DNA from: Bryobacterales bacterium
GTDB taxonomy: Bacteria; Acidobacteriota; Terriglobia; Bryobacterales; UBA6623
Assembly: GCA_028819575.1 (NCBI GenBank)
Contig: JAPPLB010000077.1
Coordinates: 1-64,000, forward strand
Length of the DNA stretch: 64,000 nucleotides
Direction of reading: 5' to 3'
The position numbers and the translations under genes are program-made. Positions 7,618 to 32,058 of the stretch are shown in pieces (within the stretch, counting starts at the first letter, position 1; each line of letters opens with the position of its first letter). The notes below the pieces were generated by a model. The model saw only the letters and a list, made by a program, of their open reading frames with translations. It made no database searches and had not been told where the DNA came from.

Positions 7618-7784
7618 CCCCGAATCCCGCAAGGACGTTCGATTTCCGGTGCTGAGACACAAGCCTGTTTGTTGCTTGGCGCCGTGGACAAAGCACGTGG
7701 AAGAAAAACAGGCTAGAATAGCCTGAGTCCGGCTGGCCGCCCCTTTGGTTAGCGCTGCGGCAGCCGACCCCGGAGGAGTTCCCC

Positions 7785-9371
7785 ATGAAACCCACAACCG
7801 TAAAAGATTCCAGCCAGGTGTCCCGGCGCGATGTTTTCCGCGCGGGCTCGATGGCTTCCGTGGCCGGCTTGCTGGCGGCCCTGCCACTGCGCTCCGCGGC
7901 GGCGCCCGCAGCTCGATTGCCTTCCCGCGGCGGCGGCCCGAACGTGTACGAGAGGGTCGGATGCCGGCCGTTCATCAACTGTACGTCGACGTTTACCATC
8001 AACGGCGGCTCGGCGCAGTTGCCCGAGGTGATCGAGGCCGTCCACGAAGCGGCGTTCTACCATGTGAACCTCGACGAGTTGATGGCCGCCGTCGGCCCCC
8101 GCATCGCCGAACTGCTTGGCGCGGAAGCGGCGATGGTCAGCTCGGGCGCGGCCGGAGCGGTGACCTGCGGCACGCTGGCCTGTGTCGCGGGCGGCGACCC
8201 GGAGACGATCCAGCAGCTTCCCGACACCTACGGCGTCAAGGACGAAGTGATCGTGCCGAGCTGGTCGCGCAGCACCTACGACCATGCGGTTCGTACGACC
8301 GGCATCAAGATGCTCGAAGTCACGACGTACGACGACCTCAAGAACGCCTTCGGCCCGAAGACGGCGATGTGTACGGGCCAGGTGAACATGCTGCGCGGCA
8401 AGAATCCGTTCACGCTGGAGCAGTTCACCGCGGAAGCGCGCAAGCATGGCGTCCCGGTCTTGATCGACGCGGCTGCCGATCTTCCGCTCGTCCCCAACCC
8501 GATCCTGGCGAAGGGCGCTGATCTGGTCGCATACAGCGGCGGCAAGATTCTGCGCGGTCCGCAGTCGGCGGGCATCCTGATCGGCCGGAAGGATCTCATC
8601 ACGGCCGCCTTCACCAACAGCGCGCCGCATCACGCTTTCGCGCGGGCGATGAAGGTCAGCAAGGAAGAGATCGTGGGCGCCTACGTGGCGGTGCACAGCT
8701 TGCTGAACGGGCGCAGCCGCAAGGCCGAAGATGATCTTTGGCGCTCCTGGTACAAGGAGATCACCGCGAAAATCACGAAAGTCGACGGCGTCACGACCAC
8801 CGTCAGCGAGCCTGCCAGCGCGGCCAACTATCCGACGCTCATGATCTCGTGGGACCCGAAGAAGATCGGTCTCACGGCGGGTGAGCTGGGCAAGATGATG
8901 CTCGACGGCGAACCGCGCATCAAGACGCACGCGGGCGGCGACGGCCATCAGTTCCGGCTGCGTCCGTGCGCGATGTACGACGGCGAGCAGAAGCTCGTCG
9001 CTTCGCGTCTCCATGAGATCTTCCGCAATGCGCCGGGCGAGAAGCCGGTGGTTCCGCTGAAGCCGCCCACGGTCACGATCGACGGCCACTGGGACATCGA
9101 TCTTCAGTTCACGGTCGGCTCGGCGCAACACAAGGTGTACTTCACCACCGACGGCAACGACGTCAGCGGCCAGTATGTCGGGCGGATTACCGACAAGCCC
9201 GTCACCGGGACGGTCAGTGGCAACGAAGTGAAATTCACCGGCGGCGGAAAGGTCGAGGCGACCACGCTGAACTACGCCTTTACCGGTCACGTCCAGGGCG
9301 ACCATATGAGCGGCGAGGCCAGCCTGGGCGAGTACGGCAAAGCCCGCTGGACGGCAAAACGCCGCGCATAG
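7785..9371 (+). CDS. Tat-exported SelA-like PLP-dependent protein with C-terminal beta domain
   Basis: 528 residues. A twin-arginine signal (SRRDVFRAG, then an Ala/Leu-rich core) at residues 13-42 predicts export. The core (~55-420) is a fold-type I PLP enzyme of the SelA / D-glucosaminate-6-phosphate ammonia-lyase group: Asp228 in VLIDAAAD and Lys254 in YSGGKILRGPQSAG match the cofactor-binding Asp and Schiff-base Lys. The last ~100 residues (from VTIDGHWDIDLQF) form a beta-rich domain that I believe recurs at the ends of exported enzymes in this phylum. The true SelA role (Ser-tRNA to Sec-tRNA) is unlikely for an exported protein, and the substrate is unknown. It is monocistronic, with GGAGG just before ATG 7785. 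Confidence 0.82.
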   Translation: MKPTTVKDSSQVSRRDVFRAGSMASVAGLLAALPLRSAAAPAARLPSRGGGPNVYERVGCRPFINCTSTFTINGGSAQLPEVIEAVHEAAFYHVNLDELMAAVGPRIAELLGAEAAMVSSGAAGAVTCGTLACVAGGDPETIQQLPDTYGVKDEVIVPSWSRSTYDHAVRTTGIKMLEVTTYDDLKNAFGPKTAMCTGQVNMLRGKNPFTLEQFTAEARKHGVPVLIDAAADLPLVPNPILAKGADLVAYSGGKILRGPQSAGILIGRKDLITAAFTNSAPHHAFARAMKVSKEEIVGAYVAVHSLLNGRSRKAEDDLWRSWYKEITAKITKVDGVTTTVSEPASAANYPTLMISWDPKKIGLTAGELGKMMLDGEPRIKTHAGGDGHQFRLRPCAMYDGEQKLVASRLHEIFRNAPGEKPVVPLKPPTVTIDGHWDIDLQFTVGSAQHKVYFTTDGNDVSGQYVGRITDKPVTGTVSGNEVKFTGGGKVEATTLNYAFTGHVQGDHMSGEASLGEYGKARWTAKRRA

Positions 9372-23164: not shown

Positions 23165-24589
23165 ATGTTCAGGGTTTCCGCCGCGGTTGGTCTCGTTCTC
23201 TTTCTTGTTCACTGCGCGGGGCCGCCGCAATACGATCTCGTGATCGTGAACGGACAGGTGATGGATCCCGAGTCGGGGCTGGACGGGATTCGCAATGTCG
23301 GTATTCGAGGCGGAAGCATTGCCGCGATCAGCGAAGACGCGCTCTCGGGCGCTAAAGTGCTCGATGCGAGCGGGCAGGTCGTGGCGCCGGGGTTCATCGA
23401 CCTGCATCAGCACGGACACAGTCCGGACAACTACAGGGCGCAGATTCACGACGGCATCACGACGGCCTTGGAGCTCGAGATCGGCGTCGAGGATATCGCC
23501 GCCTGGTACGGCGAGCGCGAGGGGAAGACGCCCGTCAACTTCGGAGCGAGCATCAGCCATCCCTACTCGCGCAACCTCGCCGTGCTGGGCAGCAACCCCG
23601 GCCTTGAGGGCGAAGCGCTCATGAAGCCCCTCGATGCCGGGCAACTCGAAAAACTCAAGCATCTTATTCGCCGCGGGCTTTCGGAAGGAGCGCCCGCTGT
23701 CGGCTTCGGCCTTGCCTATACGCCCGGAGCGACGACCGAGGAGGTTGTCGAGATCTTTCGTGTGGCGGCGAAGCACAACGCCAATTGCCACGTCCACATG
23801 CGCACTTCCGAGCCGCCCGGATTCGCCAACATCCAGGAAGTCCTCGATGCATCGAAGAAAACCGGTGCGCCGCTGCACATTTTCCACATCAACAGCAGCG
23901 CCTCGACGCGCATCCCGCAGTACCTCGACGTCATCGCGTCCGCACAAGGGCGGGGCGAGGACGTGACGACCGAGTGCTACCCTTACAACCGCGGCTCGAC
24001 GCTGATCCAGTCCCATCTGTTCAACGACTGGCGGACGTACGACGACGAGCGCCTCGCGGGGTACATCTGGGTCGAGACCGGCGCAACCTTGAGCCGTGAG
24101 ACCTTCGGGAAATACCGCGAGCAGGGCGGCACCATCATCTCTCCGCCGAGCTACAGCGAAGAGAACCTGCGAACCGCTGTCGCGAGCCCGATCACCATGA
24201 TCGCCAGCGACGGCATGTGGCTCGACAAGGGCCGCGCCCACCCGCGCTCGTTCGGGACGTACGCACGCATTCTGGGCCGCTATGTCCGGGAGCAGAAGGC
24301 GCTGTCGCTGATGGACGCGCTGCGGAAGATGTCGCTTGCGCCGGCAAAGCGGCTCGAGCGCCGTGCGCCCATGATGAAGAAGAAGGGCCGGCTGAGCGTG
24401 GGCGCCGACGCTGACATCGTCGTCTTCGATCCCGACACTGTGATCGACAAGGGCACGTTTGAGGACCCGGCTCACTATTCGGAAGGGATCCGGCATGTGC
24501 TGGTCAACGGTCAAGTGACCCTCGAGGACGCTGCGTTCGTCGAAGGCGCAGCGTCCGGCAAGGCGGTCAAGGCGCCGCCGCAAACCTGA
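23165..24589 (+). CDS. N-acyl-D-amino-acid deacylase family lipoprotein
   Basis: 474 residues. The lipobox is VHCAG at the end of the N-terminal hydrophobic segment, so it is a membrane-anchored lipoprotein. Amidohydrolase fold: [16 protein letters not shown] (small beta domain), [13 protein letters not shown] (metal site in strand 1), [15 protein letters not shown], and the family end motif [20 protein letters not shown]. It would release the acyl group from N-acyl-D-amino acids or related cell-wall-derived amides. It is located between the two mutase subunits on the same strand, but I see no metabolic link that requires this. Confidence 0.85.
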
Positions 24590-25109: not shown

Positions 25110-25131
25110 CGGGCGATCAGTCTTGAAAGCG

Positions 25132-28100
25132 ATGCCATCAGATGTAGAAGTAACCAGGCGAGGCTTCCTCAAGACGGGCGCCGCCCTGGCGACGACCGCC
25201 TTCGGATTTGATCTTCAGCCTGCTCGGGCCGCCGCCCGTGAACTGAAGATCGCACGCACCACGCAAACCCACAGCATTTGTCCTTATTGCGCCGTGGGTT
25301 GCAGCGTGATCATCCACACCCTGGGTGACAAGGCGAAGAACGTCAAGCCGGCGGTCGTTCATATCGAAGGCGATCCGGCGAGTCCGGTGAACCGCGGCAC
25401 CTTGTGTCCCAAGGGGATTTCGCTCAAGCAGTTCGTCGTCAATGACCAGCGCTTGACCGAACCGCTTTACCGCGCTCCCGGGGCGACAGCATGGAAGGTC
25501 ATTCCGTGGGACGAAGCCATCGACAAGATGGCCCGCCGCATCAAGGACTCCCGCGACCGCGGCTTCGAGCCGAAGGACGCTCGAGGCCGCACGGTGAATC
25601 GCCTCGATAACGTCGCGATCATCGGCGGCTGCACCGATACCAACGAGATCAATTACCTGCTGGGCAAGTTTCGGTTCAGTCTCGGAATCCTGACGTACGA
25701 AAACCAGGCCCGTCTTTGACACGGCCCGACGGTGGCCAGTTTGGCCGCCACGTTCGGCCGCGGAGCCATGACCAATGGTTGGACCGACGTAGCCAACACC
25801 GATGTCGTGTTGGTGATGGGCGGGAACCCTGCCGAGAATCACCCCGTCGGTTTCCGCTTTGTCATGGAAGCCAAGCGTCATCGCAAGGCCAAGCTCATCT
25901 GTGTCGATCCGCGCTTCAACCGCACTGCGGCGGTCTCCGACAGGTATGTTCAGATCCGCTCGGGCACCGACATTGCGTTCCTCGGCGGGCTGCTCAACTA
26001 CGCGCTCAGCCACGATCGGTTTCACGCCGACTACGTTCGCGAACATACGAACGCGTCGTTCATCGTGAAGGAGGGCTTCTCGTTTGCGGACGGCTACTTC
26101 TCCGGCTGGGACGAGGATAGGCAACGGTACGACAAGTCCACGTGGGAGTACGAGCGGGTCGCGGATGGCTACGCCCGCATCGACAAAACCCTCGAGCACC
26201 CGCGCTGCGTTTTCCAGCTCCTCAAGAAGCATTACACGCGCTATACGCCGGAACAGGTCGCATCGATTTCCGGTTGCACCGCCGAAGAGTTCGAGCAGGC
26301 CGCCGAAGTCATCTGCTCCACCGGCCGCGCCGGGCGCTCGGGCACGATTCTCTACGCACTCGGCTGGACGCAGCACAGCCACTCGGTGCAGCTCATCCAC
26401 ACCGCGGCGATGCTGCAACTGATGCTGGGCAACATCGGCATGCCCGGCGGCGGCGTCAACGCGCAGCGGGGACACTCGAACATTCAAGGCGCCACCGACC
26501 TCGGCGCCTGGAATATGCTGCCGGGCTATCTGAAAGTCCCGCGCGCCAACTGGACCAGCCTCGCCGAGTACAACCGTGCCAACTCGCCCAAGCCGCTCCG
26601 GCCGAACTCGTTGAACTATTGGGGCAACACTCCAAAGTTCATGGTCAGCCTGCTCAGGGCCTACTACGGAGAGAACGCCACGCATCGGAACCAGTTCGGC
26701 TATGACTACCTGCCGAAAATCGCCGAGGGGGCGACCCACAGTTGGGGGTACCTCTTCGACGAAATGTACGCCGGCAAGAAGGAAGGCCTCATCTCGTTTG
26801 GGATGAATCCCGTCGCGGGCGGGCCCAACAGCATCAAGATGATCGAGGCGCTCGGCAAACTGAAGTGGTTGATCGTCGCCGAGAACTTCGAGACGGAAAC
26901 GGCGGCGTTCTGGAAGGCCAAGGAGCTTCAGGAGAAGTACTACGGCGAGGTCACCGACCCCGAGAACGTTCAAACCGAAGTCTTCCTGCTGCCCGCCTCC
27001 TGTTTCGCCGAGAAAGACGGCACGTTTGTCAACTCCTCGCGTTGGCTCCAGTGGAAGTACAAGGCGGTCGACGCCCCCGGCAACGCGATGGACGACCAGG
27101 AAATCATCTCACGGCTCTTCCTCAAGCTGCGCGAGCTGTACGAGAAGGAAGGCGGCGCATCCCCGGAACCGCTCCTCGCCATGGACTGGAGCTACGCCAA
27201 CCCGGTCTCGCCGTCGCTCACCGAAGTCGCCAGGGAAATCAGTGGCAAGGACGTTCGCAGCGGGCGGCAAGTGCCGGGGTTCGGTGCGCTCAAGGACGAC
27301 GGATCGACCCTGTGCGGCAACTGGTTGTATTCGGGCTCGTTCACCGAAGCCGGCAACCAGATGGAAAGGCAGGGTCAGAGCGACCCGACCGGACTTGGCC
27401 TCTACGCCGACTGGGCCTGGAGTTGGCCCGCGAACCGCCGTGTCCTCTATAACCGCGCTTCAGCGGATGCCGACGGTAAGCCCTGGGACGAAACACGCGC
27501 TCCCGTCCGCTGGAAGGGCAACCGCTGGGTGGGTGATGTCCCCGATTACAAGGCCGACGCTCCACCGGAGGCCAACGGCGCATTCATCATGCTGGCCGAA
27601 GGAGTGGCGAAGCTGTTTGCGCCCGACTTCGCCGAAGGCCCGTTCCCCGAGCACTACGAGCCCGCTGAGTCGCCGGTCGAAAATCTGTTGCATCCGAACG
27701 TCGGCGACAACCCGGCAGCGCTCAAGTTCTCGAGTGACCTCGATCCGTTGGGGAATGCCGAGCAGTACCCGTACGTCGCCATTACCTACCGGCTCACCGA
27801 GCACTTTCACTTTTGGACGAAGCACGTTTCCGCCACTTCGGAGTTGCAATCCACCTTCTTCGTCGAGTTGCCCCAGGCGCTTGCCGACGAGAAGGGCATC
27901 GCGAGCGGCGACCGCGTCCGGGTAACGTCGGCGCGCGGCAGTGTGGAAGGCCCTGCGCTGGTCACGAAACGCATGCGGGGACTGCAAGTCGCCGGCAAGA
28001 CGATCTACCAGGTCGGCCTGCCGATTCATTGGGGCTTCCTGGGGCGCGTCAAGGGGCCGCTCGTCAATAACCTTACGCCGTCGGTGATGGATCCGAACTC

Positions 28101-28149
28101 AGGCACGCCGGAGTACAAGGGTTTCCTGGTCAACCTGGAGAAAGTGTAG
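25132..28149 (+). CDS. fdnG: Formate dehydrogenase, alpha subunit, selenocysteine-containing (TGA 25717 read as Sec)
   Basis: Two open segments are joined in the same frame through TGA 25717-25719: LTYENQARL-Sec-HGPTVASLA is the conserved active site of Sec-type FDH-N. Sec is residue 196, the same number as in E. coli FdnG. Total 1005 residues (E. coli 1015). A Tat signal (TRRGFLKTG, residues 8-16) exports it to the periplasmic face. The 4Fe-4S motif is CPYCAVGC plus LCPKG, followed by molybdopterin domains to the C terminus (GDRVRVTSARGSVEG, GLPIHWG). It oxidises formate to CO2 and passes electrons to FdnH and FdnI and then to quinone. ATG 25132 is preferred over TTG 25123. A SECIS-like hairpin follows the TGA. 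A gene caller without Sec support will split it. Confidence 0.95.
25717..25749 (+). promoter_or_regulatory. UGA Sec codon with bacterial SECIS-like hairpin
   Basis: After TGA 25717-25719 and an 11-nt linker, GGTGGCC (25731-25737), loop AGTTT and GGCCGCC (25743-25749) form a 7-bp stem with one G-U pair. The loop includes GU, the element bound by SelB in E. coli FDH mRNAs, where the loop region reads AGUCU or AGGUCU. Distance to the UGA is also as expected. Confidence 0.75.
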
Positions 28150-30759: not shown

Positions 30760-32058
30760 ATGAAGCACCGGCATCCCCCGCGTCAGCAGCATTCGCGCCG
30801 CCGATTTCTTCGCCAGACCGCCATCGGCTCGGCGCTGATGTGCGGTCTTTCATCTGAGGAGAGCGGGCTTCTCAAGGCGCAGCGTTCTCCGTCGTACAAA
30901 TACGATCTGGTCGTCAAGGGCGGCAGGCTCGTCGATCCCAGCCAAGAGATCTCGGAGAACCGAGACATCGCGATCTCGGGTAGCAAGGTAGCGCTGCTCG
31001 CACGGAACATCCCCGAGTCCGACGCGTTGCACGTGCTTCAGGCGAAGGGCAAGATCGTGACCCCCGGCTTGATCGACATGCACGTGCACGTCTACGACGG
31101 CGTGGCCCCGCTTTCGATTCCCTGTGACCCGAATCACATCGCCAAAGGGGTCACGACCGTGGTCGATGCCGGCTCAGCGGGCGCAAATACCTTTCCGGGC
31201 TTCCGCAAGTATGTCATCAACCAGGCCGACACCCGTGTCAAGGCCATGCTGAACATTTCCGTGGTCGGCCAGTCGACGCTTTCGAGGGACAACGCTTGGG
31301 GCGAGTTGATCGAGTTGCGCTACGTGAATCCAAAGCTCACCGCGGCGACGATCGAGAAACACCGTGACATGATCATGGGCGTGAAGGTCCGCCTGACGGA
31401 AAACATCACCGGGCCGCACGACCTTCAGGCGCTCGGTATGGCGCGAGAGGCGGCGGACGCCGTCAAGCTGCCTCTGATGGTCCACATCGGAGCCTCCTAT
31501 TCGCCCGTCAAAGACATCATGGGCATGCTGAAGAAGGGCGATGTGTTGACGCACTGCTTTCGGGACAAGGACGGCGGCATTATCGACGACAACGGGCGCA
31601 TTCTTCCGTCCGTCCATCAGGCGATTGCCCGCGGAGTTCACCTCGATGTCGGACACGGCGCCGGGAGCTTCTCGTTCGACACGGCGGAACTCGCGTTGGA
31701 GCAGGATGTCCTTCCCGGCACGATCTCGAGCGACGTGCATCAGTGGAACGTAAACGGCCCGGTGTTCGATCTCGCAACGACGCTTTCGAAGTTCATGCAG
31801 CTCGGCTTGACGCTGGAGCAGGTCATCGAGCGGGCGACGAAAAACCCCTCGATGATCCACGGCCAGCTCAACGGGCTGGGTACACTGAAAGTCGGCGCGG
31901 AGGCGGACGTGGCCGTGTTTGATCTGGCTGAAGGTGATTTCGTGTTCAGAGACGCGCAGGGCGCGACCCGCATCGGGCACCAGCTCCTGCGACCGGTGGC
32001 GACCGTCAAGGGCGGTCATCTCTATGGGATGGCTTCCATACCGGTTACCCGCTTGTAA
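30760..32058 (+). CDS. Tat-exported amidohydrolase / deacetylase family protein
   Basis: 432 residues with a twin-arginine signal (HSRRRFLRQTAIGSALMCG). The amidohydrolase core shows KYDLVVKGGRLVDPSQE, VTPGLIDMHVHVYDG (HxH metal site), MGVKVRL (Lys that bridges the metals), LMVHIG, LTHCF, and SSDVHQWN (final Asp region). The layout fits the EF_0837/AHA_3915 deacetylase group near dihydroorotase. The likely reaction is hydrolysis of a C-N bond in a periplasmic amide, substrate unknown. Confidence 0.85.
   Translation: MKHRHPPRQQHSRRRFLRQTAIGSALMCGLSSEESGLLKAQRSPSYKYDLVVKGGRLVDPSQEISENRDIAISGSKVALLARNIPESDALHVLQAKGKIVTPGLIDMHVHVYDGVAPLSIPCDPNHIAKGVTTVVDAGSAGANTFPGFRKYVINQADTRVKAMLNISVVGQSTLSRDNAWGELIELRYVNPKLTAATIEKHRDMIMGVKVRLTENITGPHDLQALGMAREAADAVKLPLMVHIGASYSPVKDIMGMLKKGDVLTHCFRDKDGGIIDDNGRILPSVHQAIARGVHLDVGHGAGSFSFDTAELALEQDVLPGTISSDVHQWNVNGPVFDLATTLSKFMQLGLTLEQVIERATKNPSMIHGQLNGLGTLKVGAEADVAVFDLAEGDFVFRDAQGATRIGHQLLRPVATVKGGHLYGMASIPVTRL

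Follow-up and report, generated by a model that had tools for sequence, protein, structure and literature searches.

The gene at positions 7785 to 9371 of the window (the whole stretch analysed here, 64,000 nucleotides of contig JAPPLB010000077.1 from a Bryobacterales bacterium) encodes a DGL-like PLP enzyme, and it is not isolated, being a member of a real, conserved and expanded family. It stands out as a DGL-like enzyme with a predicted export signal and a fused C-terminal beta barrel and, in many relatives, with partners that appear to be tagged for export themselves. We give even odds to the reading, drawn from sequence comparisons, in which the protein would serve as an exported, periplasmic ammonia-lyase for amino-sugar-acid-like substrates and would act together with exported deacylases and RidA. 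The features on which the analysis is based are given below.

7772 to 7778, + strand: RBS-like GGAGGAG, 7 to 13 bases upstream of the ATG, by direct reading
7785 to 9371, + strand: gene for the putatively exported PLP lyase-like protein, 528 aa from the ATG, no internal stops
7785 to 7907, + strand: predicted Tat-type signal peptide region, residues 1-41 (R14-R15), its end approximate; RR kept in homologues
7941 to 9032, + strand: fold-type-I PLP domain, residues 53-416, from the match to 7lc0/8t7j and the AlphaFold2 model
8466 to 8468, + strand: codon of Asp228, the PLP pyridine partner, invariant in the alignment
8544 to 8546, + strand: codon of Lys254, the Schiff-base lysine, invariant in the alignment
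8586 to 8588, + strand: codon of Arg268, aligned with DGL Arg-226, which lies near the substrate alpha-carboxylate (alignment and PMC9529869)
9066 to 9368, + strand: predicted 8-stranded, avidin-like beta barrel without a Pfam name, residues 428-528, from AlphaFold2 models
30760 to 32058, + strand: partner-family amidohydrolase/deacetylase, N-terminus of RR type (NF006689, 427 bits at 30898-32037)

Conservation of the catalytic residues and of the N-terminus was analysed in an alignment of 69 sequences, comprising the window protein and 68 of the 91 family members called in the named homologous loci, all of 495-600 aa. Asp228 and Lys254, which the initial annotation had considered intact, were invariant in 69/69 aligned sequences and in all 23 paralogs of the same genome. 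The N-terminus of the window protein, MKPTTVKDSSQVSRRDVFRAGSMASVAGLLAALPLRSAAA, in which SRRDVF is followed by an Ala/Leu-rich stretch and then by AAA, fits a Tat signal by reading. The RR pair of the proposed SRRDVFRAG signal was found in 68 of the 69 aligned sequences, the remaining one having a gap (locus L053, where the gene call starts at base 3 of the locus), and in 22 of the 23 paralogs, including C24 (L009), in which the hydrophobic stretch is poor. Thus a twin Arg ahead of a hydrophobic stretch, the sequence pattern expected of a Tat substrate, is retained in the homologues, and TatC is encoded in the genome. The full AlphaFold2 model, built with the 69 sequences, had a pLDDT of 91.1 and a pTM of 0.86, with all stretches below 50 falling within residues 1-38.

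A sequence search of the PDB (phmmer) returned 8t7j (Cap15, E 5.1e-34) and 7lc0 (DGL, E 2.5e-33) as the best matches, and Foldseek comparison of the model gave TM scores to the target of 0.87 and 0.86, respectively, against 0.55-0.65 for SelA. The best NCBIfam models were DgaE (NF047797, 148.5 bits, cut-off 600) and selA_rel (TIGR01437, 136 bits, cut-off 385.3), so that the curated cut-off of neither was reached; models of several other fold-type-I PLP enzymes matched weakly. The designation as SelA type therefore holds for the outer fold family, in which there is also a short PF03841 match, but not for the nearest enzymes, which are DGL/DgaE and Cap15: the SelA model TIGR00474 gave 36.1 bits against a cut-off of 267.9, at profile positions 273-326 only, placing the protein outside that family. 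As had been foreseen, the true SelA of the genome lies elsewhere, at C171:5566-6921 (544 bits, cut-off 267.9). The FDH alpha subunit encoded in the window (25123-28149, + strand) has a Tat-like signal; its reading frame contains a TGA within ARLUHGPT, which we take to be a selenocysteine context, the TGA probably encoding selenocysteine. The SelA on C171, together with an FDH that reads through TGA, indicates that SelA is encoded separately from the window gene, and this and the score rule out a true SelA function for the latter.

The window protein shares with DGL the PLP fold, the Schiff-base Lys, the Asp and the alpha-carboxylate Arg, with 27% identity in the structural alignment, but differs in having the RR signal and the barrel and in lacking both His-162/163 and aligned phosphate-site arginines. 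In the DGL paper (PMC9529869), Arg-226 is described near the substrate alpha-carboxylate and Arg-301, Arg-332 and Arg-346 as the phosphate site. Arg-226 corresponds to R268, which is Arg in 55/69 aligned sequences and 19/23 paralogs, while the three phosphate-site residues align with T351, H382 and C395 (Arg at 351 in 11/69), as expected for an unphosphorylated substrate. His-162 and His-163, strictly conserved in DGL according to the same text, align with N201 and M202, and His is found at 201 in none and at 202 in four of the 69 sequences. In DGL, His-163 is reported there to protonate C-3, and the H163A variant to remain almost as fast as the wild type (kcat of 20 vs 27 per second) while releasing free enamine; its authors remark that PLP enzymes are damaged by such enamines, which RidA breaks down. 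Another residue, H282, is present in 66/69 sequences of the barrel-protein alignment yet in just 13/23 paralogs of the genome, suggesting that chemistry or substrate may vary within the family.

The extra C-terminal beta domain of about 100 residues, noted from the sequence, was borne out by structure prediction, with eight strands between residues 434 and 526 in the full model and a pLDDT of 94.9 when the barrel was modelled separately. Among the 50 VIA-align matches listed (Z 12.1-14.4, rmsd 1.5-2.7 over 89-102 residues), the relatives were designed barrels, avidins and a domain of quinohemoprotein amine dehydrogenase, the last being the sole Foldseek match of the barrel at or below 1e-3. 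The predicted barrel thus has the 8-stranded form of avidins/streptavidin and of the quinohemoprotein amine dehydrogenase alpha subunit (1jmx, 1jju; Z 12-14), but with 9-24% identity among the matches listed, and here it is fused to a PLP enzyme. A Pfam search of the barrel in 68 members gave no match below 1e-3 (best 0.0032), and a single-sequence search of the genome found it in 11 PLP proteins and in no non-PLP protein, although distant copies are possible. A shared fold shows no function by itself; the barrel may perhaps bind substrate, a partner or the envelope, which is a guess. In a quick tree of 113 PLP-domain sequences, made with no bootstrap and a single very long outgroup sequence, barrel proteins fell into one branch of 87, of which 84 carry the barrel, and one of the three barrel-less members (L074) stops at a contig end. 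Many separate barrel gains were rejected, as this tree needs just three changes over the 113 sequences.

The search of the genome yielded 26 matches, of which 22 ORFs together with the window gene are 23 clear paralogs, 11 with the barrel (that of the window included) and 12 without. Three short copies (C97, C98 and C28) appear lipoprotein-like from their N-termini. In a separate observation, contig C1 bears two PLP paralogs in tandem and also five tandem amidohydrolase/deacetylase genes (C1:21382-27713). Across three genomes of the genus, 21 to at least 24 matches each were found; the two other than the source genome have 21 and at least 24, and the expansion is therefore not an artefact of one assembly. 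Over 61 genomes, 44 (the source genome included) had at least one match. Among the named loci, which are the best 80 of at least 570 confirmed stretches and include several near-copies, 66 are titled as Acidobacteriota lineages, many of them Bryobacterales or Bryobacteraceae, and the rest come from Bacteroidota (e.g. Cyclobacterium, Daejeonella, Allomuricauda and Cerina), two Actinomadura and one unassigned bacterium. In the quick tree, very short branches join copies of the source genome to those from Bryobacterales APA_bin_29 (loci L040, L057, L060 and L073). The arrangement had been called unusual, and the RR signal and barrel are indeed present; the description is too narrow, however, for one of 22 RR-bearing copies and given the precedent of periplasmic PvdN. 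A search of titles and abstract starts in the open-licence literature found no account of this putatively exported PLP family, which does not imply its absence from print.

The genes around the PLP gene were then compared across the best 80 of the at least 570 stretches. All ORFs of these loci were scanned with profiles built from neighbour clusters of the loci themselves, the RidA, amidohydrolase and control-neighbour profiles being made from the same loci, and neighbours were counted from match coordinates, as ORF calling had missed the PLP gene in 5/80 loci and in L019 of the source genome. Of these best 80 loci, 22 encode RidA, an enamine/imine deaminase, no more than 3.5 kb from the PLP gene. 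This near flank makes up 42% of the sequence and holds 23 of the 26 RidA ORFs (binomial 1.4e-6) and 29 of the 34 RidA domains (binomial 3e-7), values that are rough owing to the near-copies among the loci. A simple rule classes the N-termini of these 23 nearby RidA ORFs as Tat-like in 19 cases, Sec-like in three and without signal in one; signal typing combined a loose rule with reading, and one RidA ORF (L067:3926-4438) is doubtful. The Arg that aligns with an Arg of the solved RidA 2dyy was present, by eye, in 22 of 23 aligned sequences of Tat-like RidA, a set to which the loci contributed 19 and the source genome four.

An amidohydrolase/deacetylase was likewise found within 3.5 kb in 26 of the best 80 loci, with 31 of 38 such ORFs near the PLP gene (binomial 8e-7, equally rough). 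By the loose rule, 8 of the 31 are Tat-type, 19 Sec-like, three lipoproteins and one without signal, and the starts of those in L092, L097, L104 and L106 look wrong. The family model NF006689 (cut-off 371) gave 441 bits for L115 and 422 bits for L017 of the source genome, while L018, also of this genome, fell below the cut-off with 359.6 bits. Both partners were present in 12/80 loci and either in 36/80, with neither within 3.5 kb in 44/80 of this best set; in the Actinomadura loci L115 and L116, PLP, RidA and amidohydrolase genes follow one another consecutively, in that order, on one strand. Four of five other neighbour families did not cluster at the PLP gene (TonB receptors 9/35 near, the others 4/7, 2/5 and 5/10), and the fifth, cytochrome-like, clustered weakly (7/9, p 0.03). 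Cluster 8, cluster 10, TonB receptors and the sulfatase-like cluster 5 were accordingly rejected as partners, none being concentrated at the PLP gene; cluster 10 comprises proteins of about 400 aa in six loci (L024, L082, L089, L099, L100 and L117). PIG-L deacetylase-like proteins were seen in 6/80 loci of the best set.

Copy numbers over the 61 genomes point the same way. The number of PLP copies correlated with that of RidA domains (rho 0.84) and of amidohydrolases (0.82), against 0.61-0.64 for the control family PF01408, and the partial correlations given the control and genome size were 0.75 (RidA) and 0.74 (amidohydrolase). The 17 PLP-free genomes have 1-6 RidA domains and the 14 genomes with five or more PLP copies have 8-21, while genus means of PLP and RidA correlated at 0.80 over 27 genera. 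Up to 24 PLP, 25 amidohydrolase and 60 control candidates were scored per genome, and the highest counts are lower bounds. Since the control family correlates too, part of the copy-number signal reflects shared lifestyle, and since the 61 genomes are related, p-values are not trustworthy as such.

In the window locus, neither RidA nor amidohydrolase adjoins the PLP gene. The amidohydrolase at 30760-32058, whose nearest solved structures are 2ogj and 2ics, lies 21 kb from it, and a link between the two would follow from the other loci. A weaker relative of the partner family, a lipoprotein-like amidohydrolase, is encoded at 23165-24589 (+ strand). With 25 of 48 candidates scored, the genome has at least 17 stretches that match NF006689 at E 1e-60. 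The window contains one and the tandem array on C1 five; an amidohydrolase lies within two genes of a PLP paralog at two loci only (C122 and C168). The RidA nearest to any paralog of the genome is of lipoprotein type, 4.6 kb off on C51. Among the RidA ORFs of the genome, 9/11 look exported, four of them Tat-like; that on C66 has no clear signal and that on C20 was not recovered. Three ORFs with Sec- or lipoprotein-like N-termini (C153:32653-34962, C3:10937-11983 and C85:2371-3366) have three RidA domain matches each.

Several other explanations were weighed. A chance RR motif is ruled out by its conservation, and a cytoplasmic enzyme with a fortuitous RR stretch is very improbable: the short Pfam TAT_signal model matched just 1/69 members at 1e-3, as such an explanation would have it, but paralog C9, which has neither signal nor RR, comes closer to the DgaE-type models, with 245 and 221 bits where the window protein has 136 and 148. 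A stronger, though still unlikely, candidate is a Cap15-like O2- and PLP-dependent monooxygenase-decarboxylase converting beta-hydroxy-alpha-amino acids to carboxamides, from which an amidase would free ammonia. Cap15 stands level with DGL in sequence distance and fold, and it is described as having a beta-hydroxy-alpha-amino acid substrate and as requiring O2, PLP and, for activity, phosphate; it is an antibiotic biosynthesis enzyme, and the passages that describe it mention no export signal. Acetamidase/formamidase-like genes (PF03069 for L063) share the strand of the PLP gene and are at most 1.5 kb away from it in 4/80 loci of the best set, and L021 of the source genome (C133) has two PLP paralogs near two such genes, beside a TonB-receptor gene. 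The RidA (22/80) and amidohydrolase (26/80) links are, however, five to six times commoner; a carboxamide product would presumably not require RidA, and the phosphate on which Cap15 depends may be scarce outside the cell.

Fold-type-I PLP enzymes include racemases, aldolases and aminotransferases, and an exported enzyme of one of these types acting on cell-wall or D-amino acids is about as improbable as the oxygenase. The breadth of the fold and the weak matches to several such models favour it, whereas the nearest solved homologues are a lyase and an oxygenase, the RidA link suits an enamine or imine product, and an aminotransferase would need a keto-acid partner outside the cell. Less likely again is an exported enzyme tailoring a secreted metabolite in the manner of PvdN, which belongs to the aminotransferase class V branch and in which we know of no barrel. 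PvdN is a PLP enzyme acting outside the cytoplasm, being periplasmic by its NCBIfam name and by titles cited in PMC4433059, and differs in tailoring the siderophore pyoverdine; its model (NF051467) is absent from the best 25 of the 33 NCBIfam matches of the window protein. An aminotransferase class V cluster occurs in L020 (C97 of the source genome), two genes from the paralog, and for its member L089:1937-3232 the top-scoring NCBIfam model is PvdN (141 bits, cut-off 650), but a catabolic role is suggested by the 22 RR-bearing copies, which are scattered, and by the deacylases and RidA that accompany the family in relatives.

The ammonia-lyase reading has its own points against it, as RidA is a general enzyme, Cap15 matches the fold equally well, and the 44 of the best 80 loci mentioned above have neither partner within 3.5 kb. 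Even so, a lyase that lacks its own proton donor and is placed outside the cell, next to a RidA that is also exported, makes a coherent picture. PLP would be loaded in the cytoplasm and the folded enzyme exported by Tat; exported amidohydrolases would free the substrates from N-acyl or related forms, and these would probably be alpha-amino acids without a phosphate group, either of 2-amino-3-hydroxy-acid or of amino-sugar-acid type. In the periplasm, the PLP enzyme would eliminate a C-3 group such as water, after which NH3 would be lost, the released enamine or imine being hydrolysed by exported RidA and the keto acid and ammonia then imported. Different paralogs may serve different substrates. 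The initial annotation had left the substrate as unknown, and this stands, with the recurring RidA and amidohydrolase neighbours now hinting at the chemistry.

The closest parallel is the cytoplasmic Ong pathway of Pseudoalteromonas, in which, according to PMC9537276, OngB is a deacetylase, OngC a PLP deaminase and OngD a RidA that is required for growth on N-acetylglucosaminate in a role described as not known. Deacetylase, PLP deaminase and RidA are encoded together there; among the best 80 homologous loci, amidohydrolase and RidA both lie within 3.5 kb of the PLP gene in 12, and the window locus is not one of these. In contrast to the putatively exported proteins described here, OngB and OngC are predicted to be cytoplasmic, OngB being nearest to D-aminoacylases, and OngC is of fold type III, whereas the window protein matches fold-type-I enzymes. 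By analogy, we infer that the window family may be an extracytoplasmic counterpart of Ong, acting on amino-sugar acids or other 2-amino-3-hydroxy acids. The wider proposal, to which we lean somewhat less than evenly, is that the full route of deacylation, PLP-dependent beta-elimination and enamine hydrolysis is extracytoplasmic in some Actinomadura and in Acidobacteriota and Bacteroidota, and that exported lyases devoid of a proton donor of their own pass free enamine on to RidA, itself exported.

Enzymes of the PLP lyase and RidA kinds are familiar chiefly from the cytoplasm. If the proposal is true, the deamination of amino compounds, with its toxic enamine, would be placed in the periplasm, and keeping the reactive enamine from cytoplasmic PLP enzymes would explain the export of the entire route. 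It would also provide a function for a large unnamed PLP family and for exported RidA, and the window family would offer a direct test of why cytoplasmic DGL keeps His-163.
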